A stretch of DNA of 64,000 nucleotides, from positions 124,001 to 188,000 of the forward strand of contig NZ_BSTM01000010.1 in assembly GCF_030269515.1 (NCBI RefSeq), given 5' to 3'. The position numbers and the translations under genes were made by a program. The stretch comes from Actinomadura sp. NBRC 104412 (GTDB taxonomy: Bacteria; Actinomycetota; Actinomycetes; Streptosporangiales; Streptosporangiaceae). Under the pieces are notes generated by a model, which worked only from the letters and a program-made list of their open reading frames with translations, had not been told where the DNA came from and did not search any database. Of this stretch, positions 5,256-13,400 are shown piece after piece; position 1 is the stretch's first letter; every line of letters starts with the position of its first letter.

Positions 5256-6230
5256 ATGATCGATCGACTTTGGGGCGTCCGGCCCGCGGCCGTGGCGGCG
5301 GTGGTGGCCGTGGCGGCGCTGGGCCTCTCCGGATGCCTGGTCCCCGAGCCCTTCCGGAACGACGGTGGCGGCGGCGACGCCGGCGCCGGACCCACGTCGG
5401 CGTCGCCCGCGCCCGCCGCTCCGCGCCTGCCGCCCGTGACGGGACCGATGGCGAGGATGCCGCCCGGCACCAAGGTGCCGCTCGTCCGTCCCGGACGGCT
5501 GACGATCTGCGAGGGCTTCGCGGGACCCCCGTACATCGCGCCGAAGGGCGGCTCGACCGTTCCCGGGCAGCAGGGCGGGGGCACCGCGGAGGGCTTCGAC
5601 ATCGACCTGCTGATCCTGGTGGCCGAGCGGCTCGGGGTCACCCCGCTGGTGACGCCCGTCCAGTCGCTCGACCTGGTGCAGGGAACGGCGATGAGGCGCG
5701 GCCGGTGCGACCTGGCCGCCAGCGCCTTCCCCGACAACGCCTACACCAGGAAGCTGTTCCTGCCCAGCGCCCCGTACCTGCGGCGCGGACCGGCCATCCT
5801 CACCGGCGCCGAGGCGCGGCACACCTCGCTGGCCTCCCTCGCCGGCAAGCGCGTCGGCGTCATCGAGGGCGACGTCGTGGGCGAGGAGGCGGTCAAGCGG
5901 CACAATGCCCAGGGAGGCACGCCCATCCTGGTGCAGAGGACCGAGCGGGCGATCATCCAGTACATGCTGATGAACGGCCGGTTGGACGCGGCCGTGGTCG
6001 ACGGCGGCCTCGCCCTGTACCTGGTGAACAGGCGCGTGCGGGACGGCAGGCTGCGCATCGCCGCGGAACTCGGCCCGATGGAGAACGTGGTGTTCGGCAT
6101 CCGCCCCGGTAACAGGGCGCTGGCCAGGCAGGTCAACGCGGCCCTCGCGGACGCGGCCCGCAACGGCCGGTACGCCAGGGCGTACGCGAACTGGTTCGGG
6201 ACCGCCCCGAAATGGGTGCCCACCGGCTGA
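5256..6230 (+). CDS. Family 3 extracellular solute-binding lipoprotein
   Basis: 324 residues. A hydrophobic signal ends in a lipobox (LSGC, Cys27), followed by a Gly/Ala/Pro-rich linker and an SBP_bac_3 fold. Recognisable stretches are EGFDIDLLILVAERLGV, RGRCDLAASAFPDNAYTR and the central LASLAGKRVGVIEGDVV. Such proteins bind amino acids or small organic ligands on the outside of the membrane. No ABC permease or ATPase is adjacent. It is convergent with the glnH-like gene of the PknG operon, so it could be either a receptor or the binding subunit of a distant importer. Confidence 0.8.
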   Translation: MIDRLWGVRPAAVAAVVAVAALGLSGCLVPEPFRNDGGGGDAGAGPTSASPAPAAPRLPPVTGPMARMPPGTKVPLVRPGRLTICEGFAGPPYIAPKGGSTVPGQQGGGTAEGFDIDLLILVAERLGVTPLVTPVQSLDLVQGTAMRRGRCDLAASAFPDNAYTRKLFLPSAPYLRRGPAILTGAEARHTSLASLAGKRVGVIEGDVVGEEAVKRHNAQGGTPILVQRTERAIIQYMLMNGRLDAAVVDGGLALYLVNRRVRDGRLRIAAELGPMENVVFGIRPGNRALARQVNAALADAARNGRYARAYANWFGTAPKWVPTG

Positions 6231-6263: not shown

Positions 6264-7127
6264 TCAGGAGCAGCCGACGAACTCGGGGACGGTGGTGACG
6301 ACCTCCAGGTCCACCGAACCGAACCACTGTTGGAGCAGGGTCTCGGCGGCGCCGCTCTGGTACATCTCGGTGAGGATCCGGTTGACCCTCTGGCAGCCCT
6401 TCACATCGCCCTTCCTCAGGCCCACCCCGTACCGCTCGCTGGTGAAGGGGGCGTTGACCATCTTGACATCCGTGCGGTCGGCGCCGACGAACCCCGCCAG
6501 GATGAGGTCGTCGGTGGACACCGCGTCGACCCGCCCCCTGACCAGCAGGTCGACGCACGCGCTGTAGGACGGGGACGGCACCAGCCGGGCGTCCACCCCG
6601 CGCTCCTCGGTGACCCGCCGCCACGAATGCGACCCGTCGACCGCGCAGAGCCGCCGGCCTTCCAGGTCCTGGACGGACGCGATCTCGTTCTCGGCGCCGC
6701 GGACGAGGATGTCCTGGCGCGCGACGTAGTACGGTCCGGCGAAGGTGACGAGCTGCTGCCGCTCGGGCGTGATCGAGTAGGTGGCGAACACCAGGTCGAC
6801 GATGCCGTTCCGCAGCACCTCCTCCCGCTCGCTGGACGGCGTCGGATGGAACCTGACGCGGCCGGGCGGCACCCCGAGCCGTCCCGCGACGTACCGGGCG
6901 ACGTCGACGTCGAAGCCCCTGAACGTGCCGTCGGGCAGGCGCAGGCCCAGTCCGGGCTGATCCGGCTTGACCCCGATCACCAGCGAGTCGGCGCCCAGGA
7001 TCGAGGAGCCCGCCGTCATCCGGTCGGGCGGGTGGCCGGGCAGGGCCACCACGACCGCCACGGTGACCAGGACGGCCAGGGCGACGGCGTTCCACGCGGC
7101 GCGCGCCGCCCGCTGTCTCCCGCGCAT
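6264..7127 (-). CDS. glnH: GlnH-like amino-acid-binding protein of the PknG pathway
   Basis: 287 residues with an N-terminal membrane anchor (AVALAVLVTVAVVVALPG) and no lipobox. The family 3 binding fold is visible in LPDGTFRGFDVDVARYVAGRL, DLVFATYSITPERQ and DAVSTDDLILAGF. In mycobacteria and corynebacteria a GlnH of this type senses aspartate/glutamate and signals through the membrane protein GlnX to the kinase PknG. Here the start is one base after the stop of the GlnX-like gene, and pknG is in the same operon, which supports a sensor role rather than import. The symbol rests on this context. Confidence 0.8.
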   Translation of the reverse strand: MRGRQRAARAAWNAVALAVLVTVAVVVALPGHPPDRMTAGSSILGADSLVIGVKPDQPGLGLRLPDGTFRGFDVDVARYVAGRLGVPPGRVRFHPTPSSEREEVLRNGIVDLVFATYSITPERQQLVTFAGPYYVARQDILVRGAENEIASVQDLEGRRLCAVDGSHSWRRVTEERGVDARLVPSPSYSACVDLLVRGRVDAVSTDDLILAGFVGADRTDVKMVNAPFTSERYGVGLRKGDVKGCQRVNRILTEMYQSGAAETLLQQWFGSVDLEVVTTVPEFVGCS

Positions 7128-7128
7128 G

Positions 7129-8664
7129 TCAGCCGTGCTCCTCTCCGCCCGTGGGCGGTGTGCCCAGGTACTCGCGCAGGCGCGGCCACACCCCGGCCAC
7201 CAGCAGCGCGGCGATCACCAGGGCGGACACGGGCAGCGCCCACCTCCAGACCGCCAGCGCCGACTCGCCGCCGCGCACGGTCCGCTCGGTCACGAACCGG
7301 TGGCGCCCGGAGGTGGCGTCCAGTTCCTGATCGTGCTGCCGGAAGGCGGGATGCGGCAGATAGGGAAGGCCGGGATCCAGATGCGTCCTCGCCGCCTGGC
7401 CGGCGCGCTCGGCCGCGGCCAGCCGCCGGACGGCCCGGTCGTTGCTCTGGTACGCCCGGTAGTACGACAGCAGCCGGACGAGCACCCGATGCTCGGCGGG
7501 CGTCGCGACCCTCCGCGCGCGGGCTCCGTAGAAGCCGCCGAAGCCGATCGCTCGCGGGTCTCCGGCATAGCGCGCGAGCCGCTGCTCCAGTTGCGTGTAG
7601 TACTCCTCAAGGTCGCTCACACCGGCGATGTAGAGGATCGCCTGGGACTTCTCCAGGTACGTCTGGTCGTAGCGGTCGGCCTCGCCCGGGTCCAGCAGGG
7701 CCCGGTTACGGTCGGCGTCCAGACTCTTGGCCAGCGACTGCATACGGGACAGTGCGAGCACGGGATCGAAGCCGTCCTCCTTGGCCACGCGCAGCCGGTC
7801 CGCCTCGGTGGCCAGCGCGGACCCGCCCACCACCGCCAGCCCGGCCAGCGCCACGGTCGCCGCCGCCAGCAGCGGGCTGACCAGCCGCCGGAACCGCACC
7901 GCCAGGTAGATCTGCAACGTCACCAGCGCCAGGACCCCCGCGGTGCCCAGGGCGATCACCCTGCCCCGTTCCCACCGGATGGCCGAGCGCTCCTCCTTGT
8001 AGGTGGAGTCGACGATCGCCGCTCCGTCCAGCGTGAGGTTGCCGGCCTTCGGCAGCAGGTCCTGGGTCATCAGCGCGGTCGCCGCCCGGTACTCCGCCGC
8101 CGCGTTCGCCGGGAGCGCCCCGTAGGCGTGCTCGCCGCGGCTGCCCAGCTCCATGGCGGCCTGCACCCGCCGGTCGTACTGGTGCAGCCCGTCCAGCACC
8201 GACTGGACGGTGCGCAGCCGGACGGGGTCGTCCTCGGCCAGCCGCGCCGCCTGGAGCACGGCGCGCTGGGCGTCCTCGCGGCGCAGGTCGTAGGAGTAGC
8301 GGGGCGGGTTGCGCCGGCAGCCGCCGCCGTCCCCGCCGGGCTCGCACAGCCAGCCCTCCTCGTCGCCCGTCATCAGCACGTTGGCGACCTGCGCGTCCAT
8401 GTCGCTGAGCGCCAGGGCGACGTCGCCGGTCGCGACGACCATCGGGCCCTCGTCGTGCCCGACGGCCCGCAGCGCCTCGCGCGCGTCCGCGACGCCGAGG
8501 CCGATGACCGAGCACAGGGCGGTGAGCGAGAGCAGCACCAGCGCGGTCAGCGCCCGCACGCGTCCCGGCGTGGTGCCGACGCGGAAGAGCCGGAGCGCGC
8601 GTGAGATCCGCATGCCGCCGTGCAGCCGCAGGACCCGGGGGAGCCACACCACCTTGGACGCCAC
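7129..8664 (-). CDS. glnX: GlnX-like four-helix membrane signalling protein
   Basis: 511 residues from GTG 8664. Four membrane segments are visible: near the N-terminus (ALTALVLLSLTALCSVIGLG), two in the middle (IALGTAGVLALVTLQIYLAV and LLAAATVALAGLAVVGGSAL) and one near the C-terminus (ALPVSALVIAALLVAGVW). Large, mostly helical extracellular loops lie between 1-2 and 3-4. This matches GlnX, which transmits GlnH binding to cytoplasmic PknG. GTG 8664 lies two bases after the vwa stop with GAGGG in front; ATG 8613 is the alternative start. The gene sits between the vwa and glnH-like genes. Confidence 0.75.
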   Translation of the reverse strand: MASKVVWLPRVLRLHGGMRISRALRLFRVGTTPGRVRALTALVLLSLTALCSVIGLGVADAREALRAVGHDEGPMVVATGDVALALSDMDAQVANVLMTGDEEGWLCEPGGDGGGCRRNPPRYSYDLRREDAQRAVLQAARLAEDDPVRLRTVQSVLDGLHQYDRRVQAAMELGSRGEHAYGALPANAAAEYRAATALMTQDLLPKAGNLTLDGAAIVDSTYKEERSAIRWERGRVIALGTAGVLALVTLQIYLAVRFRRLVSPLLAAATVALAGLAVVGGSALATEADRLRVAKEDGFDPVLALSRMQSLAKSLDADRNRALLDPGEADRYDQTYLEKSQAILYIAGVSDLEEYYTQLEQRLARYAGDPRAIGFGGFYGARARRVATPAEHRVLVRLLSYYRAYQSNDRAVRRLAAAERAGQAARTHLDPGLPYLPHPAFRQHDQELDATSGRHRFVTERTVRGGESALAVWRWALPVSALVIAALLVAGVWPRLREYLGTPPTGGEEHG

Positions 8665-8666
8665 GC

Positions 8667-10019
8667 TCAGCCCTCGGCCCCGCCCTCGCGCTCGGACGGT
8701 GCCTCCGGCGGCGGGCGCATGGACTCGCTCGAATGGGTGTCGAGGCCGACGATGTCGGCCCTGCCGACCTGTCCGGGCGGCTTGAGGATCCCGCTCTCCG
8801 GGTCGGCGAACCGGTCCAGCCTGATCGAGATCTCCTCGCTGCCGGTCTCCGCCGCCAGCCTCCGCGCCCGCGAGTGCTCCGCCGCCGCGGCCCTCGCGTC
8901 GCCCGCCTCGTGCGACCTGAGCAGCCGCTGCGAGGCGTCCGCCAGCTCCTCCAGCTTCTGGTAGTGCACGACCGACGGGTCGTGCAGGGACGACAGCGCC
9001 TCGTCGCCGGTCCAGGTGGCCAGCACCTGACCGGTGGCCCGCGGCCGGTCCGGCGGCTCTCCGGGCAGCACGGCGGAGATGCGGGCGGCCAGCATGGTCT
9101 GGTCCGGCTCGCCGGGCGGCACCGTCACGCACAGGTGGTACTCGCGGTCCTCCACGCCCCAGATGCCGGTCGGGAACTCGGCGGTCTTCGGCCCGGGGGT
9201 GCTCGGTCCCGTCTCGGCCCAGCCGCCGGCCAGATCGCGCAGCGCCGGGTACACCTGCTTGAAGAAGCGCAGCGTGGCGTTGTGCGGCGTCCACACCCGC
9301 AGCGTCACGTCGGCGACCGCCTTGCCCATCGCCTGCTCGATCATCCCGGCGAAGTCGGCGGCCAGGTCCCCGGGGTCGGCGACCATCCCGAACCGGCCGA
9401 GCAGCCGCGCCGACACCCGGCGCAGCTCCGCGGGCTCCCAGTCGGCGCCCACCCCGTGGCTGTCGCACACGAACCGGCCGGCGCAGCGGTCCAGCGCGGC
9501 GTCCAGGTCCTCGGGGGTCTCGTGTTCGTTCTTGCCGTCGGTCAGCAGCACGGCGTGCCTGATCGGGTGGTCGTCCGCGGCGAACAGCTCCGCGGCCAGG
9601 CTCAGCCAGCGGCCGATCCTGGTGCCGCCGCCCGCCGACAGCCGCGAGATCGCCAGATGCGCGTCCCGCCTGGTCGTCTCGGTGAAGCGGGCCAGCAGCC
9701 GGTCGCGGGGATACACCATCGCCGCGTCCGCGGCGCCCGCGATCACGGCGAAGTCGACGCCCGGCCGCAGCGCGTCCACCGCCGCCCGCGCCGCGCGCTT
9801 GGCCGCCACCAGCCGCGCGCCCAGCATCGACCCGGAGGTGTCGACGATGATGACCTCGGCGGCGGGGCGCGGGGCGCCGCGGATGGCCGAGGCGTCGCCC
9901 GTCGCCCGGACCTTCGCGATGGCGTGCACCTCCGTCTCGGCCACGGCGAGATACGGGTTCTGGTGGATCTCGATCGTGAGCTCGGGAGGGTCGCCGGACG
10001 GTCCGCTCATCGTCTGCAT
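8667..10019 (-). CDS. VWA-domain protein of the PknG operon
   Basis: 450 residues. A von Willebrand factor A domain begins with the complete MIDAS motif DTSGSM at residues 60-65, with the later acidic/threonine positions in GGGTRIGRW and LLTDGKNEHE. The C-terminal part is a beta-rich region followed by a charged helical tail. There is no signal peptide or membrane segment, so it is probably cytoplasmic. It starts 7 bp after the pknG stop and is followed by the GlnX-like gene. Its role between kinase and receptor is not established; a scaffold or metal-dependent binding partner is a guess from the fold. Confidence 0.8.
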   Translation of the reverse strand: MQTMSGPSGDPPELTIEIHQNPYLAVAETEVHAIAKVRATGDASAIRGAPRPAAEVIIVDTSGSMLGARLVAAKRAARAAVDALRPGVDFAVIAGAADAAMVYPRDRLLARFTETTRRDAHLAISRLSAGGGTRIGRWLSLAAELFAADDHPIRHAVLLTDGKNEHETPEDLDAALDRCAGRFVCDSHGVGADWEPAELRRVSARLLGRFGMVADPGDLAADFAGMIEQAMGKAVADVTLRVWTPHNATLRFFKQVYPALRDLAGGWAETGPSTPGPKTAEFPTGIWGVEDREYHLCVTVPPGEPDQTMLAARISAVLPGEPPDRPRATGQVLATWTGDEALSSLHDPSVVHYQKLEELADASQRLLRSHEAGDARAAAAEHSRARRLAAETGSEEISIRLDRFADPESGILKPPGQVGRADIVGLDTHSSESMRPPPEAPSEREGGAEG

Positions 10020-10026
10020 GCCGCCT

Positions 10027-12150
10027 TCACAGGAAAGTCATGGGCCGTACCGCGTTGGCCTTGTCCACCAGCGCGTGCTTGGCGTCGGTGTCGGTGGCGA
10101 ACCAGGCCAGCTCGCGGTAGGTGCGCTCCAGCCTGCGCCGCAGGCTGCGCTGGGTCAGCCTGGTGCCGATCAGGTCCGTGTCGGGATGCTCGTCCTGGCC
10201 GGTCTGGATCCAGGCGAGCCCGCCTTCCAGCACCTCGGCCTCCAGCCGCCTGCGCAGCACGCCGTCGATGCGGGAGTGGCCGAGCCGCCGGGCCGCCGCC
10301 AGCAGCGCCTCCCTGGACAGGTCCGAGGACGGGCGCCCGCGCAGGCCCGCCGCCATGGCCGCAAGTTGCGCGGCGCCGTAGTGCCGGGACAGCGACGGCA
10401 CCTCGTCCAGGGCGCGCACCGCGCCGTCCCGGTCGCCCATGGCCAGGCGGACGCGGGCCAGGCCGAAGGCCGCGCTGAGGTAGCCGTGGTCGGTGCGCCA
10501 CACGCTCTCGTAGTGCCGGGCCGCCCCGGCGAAGTCACCGGCGTCCTCGCGGCAGAACGCCAGCGCCAGCTTGGGCGCGGCCTCGCCCGGCATCCGCGTG
10601 TAGAGGTGGTCGAACATCCGCCCCGCGGCCCGGTGCCTGCCCGCCGCCAGGGTGGCGGCCGCCCGGTACCAGTCGACACGCCAGTCCTTGTGCGGGCTCT
10701 CGCCGAGCACGGCGAGCAGCGCCTCGGCCTCCGCCCGGCGGCCCAGGTCCAGGTACGCCCCCGCCAGGACGAGCCGTTCCTCCAGCGAGGAGATCCGCGG
10801 GCCGCGCGGCCCCGTCAGCTTCTCGACGATCTCCCGCGGCTCGTGGCCGGCCAGGTCCGGCAGGCCCGGCGCGCCGTCCGACCCGGACACCACGGGCACG
10901 GGCAGCGCGGTCACCGCCGACCTCGGCGTGAGCGGCGCGGGCGCGGGCGCCGCCGCGCCGGTCGCGATGATGCCCGCGCCGACCACCGCCCGTTCCCGCC
11001 CGAACAGGGTGGACGGCACCGGCCAGGGCTCGGAGTTGCGGGGCGCCGACACGGCCTCGCGCAGCACGCCGAACAACTGCTCCTCCATCTCGGTGGCGTC
11101 GGCGAACCGATCCGCCGGGTCGTCGGCGGTGGCGCGGCGCAGCAGCCGGTAGTAGGAGTCGAACCGCTCCAGCAGCGGCGCCGACGCGCGCCCCGGCAGG
11201 CCGTACTCGGCGTCCTGCATGGGCCCCGGCGGCAGGCTGAGCATGGCCATCGTGCGGCCCACCGTGTACAGGTCCGAGCGGATCGACGGCTGCTCGCCAC
11301 GGATCGCCACCTCGGGCGCCATGAACCTGGGCGTCCCGACACCGTGCGCGGTGCCGTCCATCGGTTGCGCGCCGCCCAGGTCGATCAGGGTGAGCCGCCG
11401 CTCGCACTGCATGACGTTCGACGGCTTGAGGTCGCAGTACAGCAGCCCCTGGGAGTGCAGGTAGGCCAGCGCACGCAGCATCTCGATCCCGTAGGCGATG
11501 ACGTGCTCGACGGGGAGCACCGCGTCCTTGTCCGCCCTGCGCCTCTCGTTCAGCAGGGCCTGCAAGGTGCGGCCGCCGACGTACTCCATCACGATGTAGC
11601 GCTGCACGTCCGCCGGGTCGGTGCCGGGCTCCGGCGCGGGATGCTGGACGAAGTTGTGGATCTTCACGATGTTGGGGTAGTTCACCGCGGCGAGCGCGGC
11701 CCGCTCGGCCTCCGGGACGTCCGCGACGTCGGGGTCGGTCCCGCGCAGGCCCTTCAGCGCCACCCAGTGCCCCACGTTGTTGTCGTAGGCCAGGTAGACC
11801 CAGCCCATCCCGCCGCGCCCCAGGCAGCCCTCGACGCGGTACTGCCCGCCGACCAGCTCGCCCGGCCGCAGCCGCGCGCCCTCGCCCGAGGTCGGGGTGA
11901 GCTTGAGCCTCTTCGGGTCCTGGTACGGGACGGAGTCCACCCCGGCCATCTCCAGCGGGCCGTAACGCGCGAAACGCAGCGGCGCCGGGACCGGGGACTC
12001 CGGTCGCGGTTCCGGCGCGACCGGACGCGGCGTCCCGGTACCGTACCCGCCCGAGCCTCCACGGTCGGCGAGCGGTGGCGGCGCGAACCCGCAGTAGTCG
12101 CAGAAGCCGTTGGTGATGGTGCCCTGGCCGCAACGGGTGCATTCGTTCAT
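10027..12150 (-). CDS. pknG: PknG-type serine/threonine protein kinase
   Basis: 707 residues with the PknG plan. An N-terminal rubredoxin-like zinc/iron site has Cys4, Cys7, Cys17 and Cys20. The kinase core has a glycine loop (LGRGGMGWVYLAY, about 110-122), Lys133 in VALKG, catalytic loop YCDLKPSNVM (Asp240) and DLG at 257-259. A C-terminal TPR-like helical region follows (about 450-700). As in mycobacterial PknG (YNDLKPEN...DLG), the HRD arginine is absent and DFG is DLG. PknG phosphorylates GarA/OdhI and so controls 2-oxoglutarate metabolism; no FHA gene is visible here. ATG 12150 overlaps the upstream stop (ATGA). Confidence 0.93.
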   Translation of the reverse strand: MNECTRCGQGTITNGFCDYCGFAPPPLADRGGSGGYGTGTPRPVAPEPRPESPVPAPLRFARYGPLEMAGVDSVPYQDPKRLKLTPTSGEGARLRPGELVGGQYRVEGCLGRGGMGWVYLAYDNNVGHWVALKGLRGTDPDVADVPEAERAALAAVNYPNIVKIHNFVQHPAPEPGTDPADVQRYIVMEYVGGRTLQALLNERRRADKDAVLPVEHVIAYGIEMLRALAYLHSQGLLYCDLKPSNVMQCERRLTLIDLGGAQPMDGTAHGVGTPRFMAPEVAIRGEQPSIRSDLYTVGRTMAMLSLPPGPMQDAEYGLPGRASAPLLERFDSYYRLLRRATADDPADRFADATEMEEQLFGVLREAVSAPRNSEPWPVPSTLFGRERAVVGAGIIATGAAAPAPAPLTPRSAVTALPVPVVSGSDGAPGLPDLAGHEPREIVEKLTGPRGPRISSLEERLVLAGAYLDLGRRAEAEALLAVLGESPHKDWRVDWYRAAATLAAGRHRAAGRMFDHLYTRMPGEAAPKLALAFCREDAGDFAGAARHYESVWRTDHGYLSAAFGLARVRLAMGDRDGAVRALDEVPSLSRHYGAAQLAAMAAGLRGRPSSDLSREALLAAARRLGHSRIDGVLRRRLEAEVLEGGLAWIQTGQDEHPDTDLIGTRLTQRSLRRRLERTYRELAWFATDTDAKHALVDKANAVRPMTFL

Positions 12151-13220
12151 CGGTCGCCTCCGTGCAAGCCGTTGATGTAGCGCTCCAGTGCCGCCTCGGC
12201 CTCCACCAGGTCGCATGGCTTCGCCTTGAGCAGGTCGCGGACCCGTTCCCGGAGCCGGTCCAGCTGCTTGTCCTCGGCACGGCCCAGGTCGTGGGCCATC
12301 GCCTCGTACGAGGTCAGCCTGCCCCGCAGCTCCTTGTGGTGACGCATCGGCGCCTTGACCGCGCGCAGAGCCTCCCGGGCCTCGCCGAGGGCGGTCTCGG
12401 CGGCGCCCTCGGCTTCGGCGAGACGCACGGTGACGTCCTTCCAGAGGCGGTTCAGGCGCGCCTCGTCCAGCGAGGCGAGGCGGTCGCGTAACACGGCGGC
12501 CGGATCGGGCACCTCGGGCACGGGGGAGCAGATCGCCCGGACGGTCTCCGCCCGCACCCGCCGCGCCTCGGCCAGGGTCTCCTCCACCTCGGCGAGGCGC
12601 TCCTCGACCGGGCCGATCCTCTCCCCGTAGTCGCGGCCCGCCCCGATCTGCGCCGGGCACATGCAGATCCACGCCTCGCAGTCGGTCGCCTTCACCACGA
12701 CCTGGACCCGCCGGTAGTCGCCCGGCAGGTAGCCGCGCCGCTGCCGGATGACCGAGCGGTGGAACTCGGCGGAGCTGATGAACGCCAGGTCGCCGGTCGC
12801 CGTCCGCAGCTCCTCCCGCAGGGCGGGCGCGTCCAGCAGCCGGAACACCAGGTTGAGCTCGGTTCCGACGACGCCCTCGGTGTCGTGCCGCACGTACCCC
12901 GCGTGCAGCGCCACCCGGAGCCTGATGCGGCAGCGCGCGTCCGCCGACCGGTTGTAGCGGCCCAGCTCGGCGGCCAGCTCGAACGGCAGCGGCTCCACCA
13001 GCCGGGCCTGCGGGCCGTCCACCGGGACGAGGAAGAACCCCCCGTCCCCGCGATCCTCGTGGTAGGCGGCGGGGACGTCGGACGCGGCGAAGGCGCGCTC
13101 CAGCGCCGCGTACATCCCCTCCCGCATCCGTATCTGATCGGGGTCGCGGCGGTCGGGACGGGTGAATCCCTCGATGTCGACGCAGACGATCGCCCGGTAC
13201 GTGGCGTGGGGGGAACTCAT
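12147..13220 (-). CDS. Class III nucleotidyl-cyclase-fold protein with coiled-coil tail, coupled to PknG
   Basis: 357 residues from ATG 13220 (GGAG five bases upstream). Residues 8-190 look like a class III cyclase homology domain: VCVDIEGFT with Asp15, RGDGGFF with Asp59 (the two metal Asp positions), and GTELNLVFRLLD with the NxxxR pair Asn123/Arg127. Residues about 205-357 are charged heptad-like helices (ERLAEVEETLAEARRVRAET and on). It is the first gene of the pknG operon and overlaps pknG by 4 bp, so the two are probably co-translated. Whether it makes a cyclic nucleotide or only binds one cannot be read from sequence; the lysine/aspartate base-recognition positions were not assigned. 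Confidence 0.7.
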   Translation of the reverse strand: MSSPHATYRAIVCVDIEGFTRPDRRDPDQIRMREGMYAALERAFAASDVPAAYHEDRGDGGFFLVPVDGPQARLVEPLPFELAAELGRYNRSADARCRIRLRVALHAGYVRHDTEGVVGTELNLVFRLLDAPALREELRTATGDLAFISSAEFHRSVIRQRRGYLPGDYRRVQVVVKATDCEAWICMCPAQIGAGRDYGERIGPVEERLAEVEETLAEARRVRAETVRAICSPVPEVPDPAAVLRDRLASLDEARLNRLWKDVTVRLAEAEGAAETALGEAREALRAVKAPMRHHKELRGRLTSYEAMAHDLGRAEDKQLDRLRERVRDLLKAKPCDLVEAEAALERYINGLHGGDR

Positions 13221-13400
13221 CGCATCTCCGACTCGCGCGAGCGGCGTGACGGCACGCGGGCGCGACCCCGCTCGCGCCGCCGCGCCCAGGCGAATCACCG
13301 GTCATGATAGGGGCGGCATGTCACACAGAGTAGGTCGAACGACACAACCAGGATCCCGGGGGCACCGCGGACTGTCGGTGGGACCTGCGAAGATGTGGCC

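Follow-up and report, generated by a model that had tools for sequence, protein, structure and literature searches.

The PknG operon of Actinomadura sp. NBRC 104412 contains a gene, here called cyc, whose product appears from sequence comparison to be the usual helical partner of the kinase, in which a class III cyclase domain has taken the place of the N-terminal half. The operon lies in the 64,000-nucleotide stretch of DNA that we analysed (hereafter the window). PknG is a nutrient-sensing kinase, and its output is an FHA metabolic regulator. We estimate at about 0.5 the probability that the operon of the window encodes a signalling chain across the membrane whose output is enzymatic, namely cyc. 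The genes, their order, domains, folds, conserved residues, exchanges and phylogeny given below were all computed.

The original prediction had placed the known GlnH-GlnX-PknG set in a single minus-strand operon, and the gene order, coordinates and family matches bore this out. As read from the open reading frames of the window, five genes follow one another on the minus strand in the order cyc, pknG, VWA, glnX, glnH. The cyc gene (12147-13220) begins with an ATG at 13220 and ends with a TGA at 12149-12147, overlapping by 4 bp (ATGA) the pknG gene (10027-12150), which starts with an ATG at 12150. The VWA gene (8667-10019) is separated from pknG by 7 bp and from the ATG of glnX (7129-8613) by 53 bp, a GTG at 8664 being a possible alternative start of glnX; a single base pair lies between glnX and glnH (6264-7127). 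Upstream, polA is divergent from cyc and starts at 13395. At the other end, a second SBP_bac_3 gene (5256-6230, plus strand) is convergent to glnH and encodes a product with a lipobox-like Cys; none of the other window-type loci searched showed a counterpart of this gene beside the operon.

The pknG product, with kinase and TPR domains, matched PknG_TPR (PF16918) with 291 bits (cut-off 27) as well as Pkinase, and aligned with M. tuberculosis PknG (2pzi) with an E value of 4.1e-114. The catalytic Lys and two Asp are kept, with roles that we take to be those of the M. tuberculosis enzyme. The N-terminus carries two CxxCG motifs and PF16919 (rubredoxin-like) was not among its Pfam matches; in the text of PMC8546545, the rubredoxin-like domain of PknG is defined by either PF16919 or two CxxCG motifs. 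The product of glnX, a membrane signal transducer of the GlnX family, scored 227.2 bits over nearly the full length of model NF058618, for which the curated cut-off is 250, and its position in the operon fits GlnX. The glnH product, an SBP_bac_3 solute-binding protein, aligned with M. tuberculosis GlnH (6h1u) with an E value of 2.2e-27, and no lipobox cysteine was seen at its N-terminus. According to the text of PMC6069109, six side chains of M. tuberculosis GlnH contact Asp and Lys161 contacts it via water. With the register set by hand from the numbering of the DIGSN loop, the glnH product keeps five of the six, Trp232 being replaced by Tyr, and has Ala for Lys161. An acidic amino acid likely remains the ligand of this protein. 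The protein encoded between pknG and glnX matched VWA_3, VWA_2 and VWA in Pfam, and the MIDAS motif that had been predicted for it can be read off the sequence (DTSGS ... T ... TDG). No cNMP-binding domain was found among the Pfam matches of the operon proteins.

Searches with cyc in Pfam, NCBIfam and PADLOC gave no informative match, with neither a Pfam cyclase nor DUF2652 among the results, and a single-sequence search of the PDB returned artificial helical proteins, apolipoprotein E and one other protein, none of them a cyclase. A family profile (25 members) was therefore used; this profile matched class III cyclases in the PDB, with 3mr7 as the best match (E 1.2e-6). The predicted structure of residues 1-190 (12651-13220, minus strand) is that of a class III nucleotidyl cyclase homology domain (CHD), with a mean pLDDT of 93.0 and a pTM of 0.84, and its best structural match in the PDB was the guanylyl cyclase Cya2 (Z 16.7, rmsd 2.7, 174 aligned residues). 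Thus the cyclase fold, the overlap of cyc with pknG and the positions of the metal residues Asp15/Asp59 and of Asn123/Arg127 were all as the original prediction had described them. D15, E55, D59 and R127 are present in 44 of the 44 CHDs compared and G116 in 43. N123 was found in all 8 window-type proteins, in a divergent relative from A. chibensis described below and in 19 of the 35 others, and F126 in the same 8, in that relative and in 25 of the 35. The two metal Asp and the transition-state Asn/Arg are accordingly kept in 8/8 window-type proteins, as are the base-pocket positions of guanylyl type.

In the text of PMC4215837, base selection in Ma1120 is ascribed to three residues: K101, which precedes the second metal Asp by four positions, and D157 and A167, which lie seven residues ahead of the Asn position and three behind it, respectively; the K101E/D157G and K101E/D157G/A167Y mutants have increased guanylyl activity, with adenylyl activity remaining. 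In cyc these positions are occupied by E55, G116 and F126, Phe standing where Cya2 has Tyr, and this occupancy suggests GTP as the substrate. The genome of the window contains 13 matches to cyc, consisting of cyc itself, 10 CHDs and 2 helical domains. Elsewhere, a CHD-helical protein lacking the second metal Asp is encoded in L157/L160 of genome G100 (11842-12999 of L160, minus strand). No PknG was found near its gene (none in 19 kb), and the protein is likely a decayed or regulatory copy.

The C-terminal part of cyc, about 170 residues (191-357; 12147-12650, minus strand), is a separate helical domain without a Pfam family, which reached a pLDDT of 95.0 when modelled alone. Foldseek returned no structure for this domain alone at E <= 0.001, and its best VIA match was EzrA (4uy3; Z 10.4, rmsd 3.8, 159 aligned residues), within the range that the tool flags for helical bundles. 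When 24 genomes were scanned (that of the window and 23 others of the genus), 46 of 52 matches to the helical domain lay on the same strand as PknG and at most 2.5 kb upstream of it; five of the remaining six were on contigs without a listed PknG and one was in a VMAP locus. The same scan gave 54 PknG places, eight of which had no helical match: one belongs to another family, four are on contigs that are short or near whose end they lie (C211, C74, C214, C245), and three are PknG-GlnX loci. The domain was also present in 29 of 47 genomes from 45 other genera, a non-random sample drawn from genomes already matching cyc. In the 30 loci of these other genera the N-terminal slot was filled by the standard N-terminal half (hN) in 26 cases, by a CHD in two and by a trypsin-like domain in one; in the last, the helical domain was fused to PknG. 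PknG was visible in 27 of the 30 short stretches around these loci.

The helical domain and PknG are a single protein in L158/L159. In L159 this fusion is followed by VWA, GlnX-like, SBP_bac_1-like and Trypco1-like genes; the N-terminus of the fusion lies off the contig, and its label as a trypsin form rests on Trypco1. Such a fusion supports contact between the helical domain and PknG. The original prediction had regarded cyc as an extra gene built into the operon. The cyclase-fold protein is real; the gene itself, however, seems to be that of the usual helical partner in modified form. We also noted, in the 4-19 kb stretch of L162 (G126), genes for an hN-helical protein, a PP2C and a VWA protein in a row, with no PknG match between or near them.

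Full-length matches to cyc, with 52-60% identity, were found in at least 7 of 65 genomes of the genus, including that of the window, and window-type cyc in at least 8 of 345 genomes of the order, one of them from another genus. Both counts are lower bounds, up to 56 candidates per genome having been scored in one of the searches and up to 5 in the other. Besides the window, the carriers are Actinomadura sp. J1-007, A. spongiicola, sp. KC216, sp. KC06, A. pelletieri, A. soli and a Thermomonosporaceae MAG. The order of the five genes is complete in four further genomes (L098, L099, L100, L101), which is beyond chance; in three others the sequence stops in or after pknG and the cyc-pknG pair can be seen. 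Five carriers have similar upstream flanks, and those of the window and J1-007 match none (the MAG was outside this comparison). Six window-type kinases formed one clade with support 100/100, in a tree that leaves out J1-007 and the MAG because PknG reads as broken or truncated there. In J1-007 (L100) the pknG match falls into three pieces and that of VWA into two, and the frames look broken or the sequence poor. A frame of 1186 residues in G110, a candidate cyc-pknG fusion, was rejected as two genes split by a stop. The rarity of cyc beside pknG in relatives, on which the original prediction could have foundered, turned out to be half the picture: the window-type form is rare, with the divergent A. 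chibensis genome (G009) to be added to its few carriers, but it is conserved where present.

The usual cassette reads hN-helical protein, pknG, (PP2C), VWA, FHA, glnX, glnH, and two such cassettes (L078, L079) accompany the window operon in its genome. The VWA gene, which had also been taken for an insertion, is therefore a standard component: among the PknG loci of the same family (f1) that were covered far enough, it is absent only from L092, L095 and L096. These three loci have a GlnX-family gene after pknG but neither SBP nor VWA; in L096 the pair is flanked by DUF3159 and an amino-acid permease. Because the VWA gene is also found in a locus from another family of the class (L062, GlnX-SBP3-pknG-PP2C-VWA-FHA), we consider it an old partner of PknG; a locus from a third family (L061) has GlnX-SBP3-pknG only. 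Of 30 complete hN cassettes, 29 contain FHA and 19 contain PP2C. The one cassette lacking FHA, L058, has no PP2C either, and no CHD. FHA was found in none of the six complete CHD cassettes and none of the six trypsin cassettes. In 12 enzyme-type loci and L159, no FHA or PP2C match exceeded 33 bits in a search made without composition correction, and the matches of the window fell inside cyc and pknG. Since the window types form one clade, their loss of FHA and PP2C is one event.

Exchanges at the same slot were observed in other lineages. The divergent A. chibensis locus (L083, G009) contains a CHD-helical gene, pknG, VWA, a GlnX-family gene (95 bits, cut-off 250) and SBP_bac_1; its CHD keeps D15, E55, D59, N123, F126 and R127 and has Thr for G116. 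In L097 (G007) a Trypsin_2-helical gene precedes pknG and VWA, and SBP_bac_11, a GlnX-family gene (180 bits, cut-off 250), SBP_bac_3 and Trypco1 are divergent from these. L161 (G138) has the same gene set by similarity, and a search of 345 genomes, with four candidates scored in each, added L166-L169, giving at least six trypsin loci in five genomes. All six carry PknG, VWA, GlnX, an SBP and a Trypco1-like gene, the latter in 4/4 of the added loci; the SBPs of these four are SBP_bac_1-like in three and SBP_bac_3-like in one. Detection of the helical domain in L166 required the L097 query. L083 grouped weakly with six trypsin forms in the kinase tree (85/54) and was set apart from the window clade by a branch with support 100/99. 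A single clade of all CHD-linked kinases was rejected (AU p 5.07e-6), and by this comparison the PknG adaptors of two kinase lineages carry a CHD, whether the domain was drawn from the CHD family once or twice. A single clade of the CHDs themselves was not rejected (AU p 0.235), so that separate double recruitment of the domain is not established.

These exchanges bear on the role of cyc. The original prediction proposed that nucleotide or metal input joins the amino-acid signal. On such a reading the CHD would bind or make a nucleotide that regulates PknG, and the intracellular nucleotide level would be combined with the external cue. The position of cyc upstream of pknG, their overlap and the link of the helical domain to PknG agree with this proposal, and according to the text of PMC7159879 several cyclase domains of conflict systems are catalytically inactive and perhaps only bind nucleotides. 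However, a nucleotide input hardly accounts for a trypsin-like protease in the same slot, GlnH-GlnX already provides a sensor, and the active-site positions are kept in 8/8. We regard an input role as rather unlikely; an output agrees better with the protease exchange and with the lack of FHA and PP2C. It is very improbable that cyc is an ordinary cyclase sharing PknG transcription by chance, with no physical or functional tie. The CHD family is indeed large, with 10 further matches in the genome, and fused to many partners, but cyc is fused to a helical domain that marks PknG loci, the cyc-pknG pair is co-inherited, and CHDs joined PknG loci in two kinase lineages.

An output module is thus the reading that fits best, because enzymes of different chemistry replace the regulatory half of the helical protein, always in the same position ahead of the PknG-linked domain, the sensor is kept, and FHA and PP2C are absent. 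How the proteins dock, what is catalysed and made, and which way the signal runs are inferred as follows. An extracellular acidic amino acid would bind to GlnH, GlnX would relay this signal across the membrane, and PknG would be turned on in the cytoplasm. Through its helical C-terminal domain, cyc would dock on the PknG/VWA module, and its class III cyclase domain would act as output, probably making cGMP from GTP in the active complex and replacing the FHA/PP2C output of the standard cassette. The chassis would be modular at both ends, accepting another output (the trypsin-like protease with Trypco1) and other solute-binding proteins. Several observations weigh against an output role: the loss of FHA and PP2C counts once, and L058 lacks both without having a cyclase; the CHD of L157/L160 has lost the second metal Asp and has no PknG nearby, and in L103 the helical domain, too, occurs in the absence of PknG; the Pfam matches of the operon include no cNMP-binding domain that could receive the product; G116 is not kept in L083; and the carriers are few.

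Some partners of the CHD family suggest a link to conflict systems. Members are fused to EAD2 (L006, L023), NB-ARC (L012, L013, L016), TPR (L020) and SBP_bac_11 (L005); in three further CHD proteins the scan revealed no additional domain. The L005 protein, in which a CHD is joined to a binding domain of SBP_bac_11 type, is encoded on contig C37 of the window genome. The VMAP locus L103 (G021, 3.5-11.7 kb) encodes one protein that combines VMAP-C, VMAP-M8 and Trypsin_2, with a Trypco1-like match beside it, and a second, of 1694 residues, that combines FtsK, the PknG-type helical domain and a CHD. The operon could accordingly be imagined as a defence or cell-fate system in which the SBP senses a foe or stress and the cyclase triggers the response. 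The EAD2 and NB-ARC fusions, the Trypco1 of the trypsin forms and the presence of both cyc domains in L103 are in line with this idea. We nevertheless consider it improbable, as GlnH keeps its amino-acid pocket, no Trypco part was found in the operon by Pfam, and cyc had no PADLOC match. For Pycsar, too, PADLOC gave no match among the 25 of 33 PknG matches listed. VMAP, a MoxR AAA partner and EAD were likewise without a Pfam match in the five operon proteins and the flanking SBP protein, and because of this we did not assign the operon to the VMAP/EAD conflict systems.

Returning to cyc as output, we tentatively extend this reading, with more doubt than belief, to a general scheme in which SBP-GlnX-PknG is a modular transmembrane receptor-kinase chassis of filamentous actinomycetes. 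A PknG-bound helical adaptor would carry exchangeable enzymes (guanylyl-type cyclase, or trypsin with Trypco1) from the pool that also supplies conflict systems, the SBP would also be exchangeable, and the window would encode a cGMP synthase gated by extracellular Asp/Glu. If so, a single domain exchange would wire the PknG sensor chain to second-messenger synthesis or to proteolysis, and bacteria would have a receptor-kinase system whose inputs and outputs are both interchangeable. PknG signalling would be tied to the parts list of conflict systems, Asp/Glu would become a candidate cue for a cyclase family otherwise without a known signal, and a PknG-linked helical domain absent from Pfam would be named as a likely docking module.

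Comparison with described systems shows both likenesses and differences. Like Cya2 and the Ma1120 mutants (in the text of PMC4215837), cyc has a class III fold, two metal Asp, the Arg, and Glu/Gly/aromatic residues at the base-selecting positions; unlike them, it belongs to another family (16-17% identity), has Phe instead of Tyr, lacks a Pfam cyclase match and carries the helical PknG-linked domain. DUF2652 proteins, as presented in PMC4886424, also have an uncharacterised actinobacterial class III cyclase-like domain, but with a Lys-Glu pair and Ile for Asn where cyc has Glu-Gly and Asn. Kaur et al. 2020 (PMC7159879), whose main text does not contain the name PknG, count cNMP cyclases, trypsins, Trypco1 and EAD2 among the components of conflict systems, and also report a kinase-PP2C-vWA theme from the GAP1-N2 neighbourhoods of actinobacteria. 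The latter resembles the standard cassette, a zinc-ribbon kinase adjoining PP2C and a stand-alone vWA. The VMAP/EAD systems of the same text share with the window type and its relatives exchangeable cNMP cyclase, trypsin, Trypco1 and EAD2, and differ from the window operon, which is without VMAP, MoxR or EAD and has SBP-GlnX-PknG as its core. No paper joining PknG with a cyclase, Trypco1 or VMAP was found among open-licence PMC articles (one query loose, best 10 of 501), and the paper search found none on TerY-kinase-PP2C sets. The closest known system is GlnH-GlnX-PknG of Mycobacterium and Corynebacterium (in the texts of PMC6069109, PMC9769921 and PMC8546545), which likewise has an SBP, a GlnX-family protein and PknG in one operon, with the same kinase and TPR domains and most of the Asp-contact residues of GlnH. 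That operon has three genes and acts on GarA/OdhI, whereas the operon of the window adds the VWA gene, which is standard here, and cyc.
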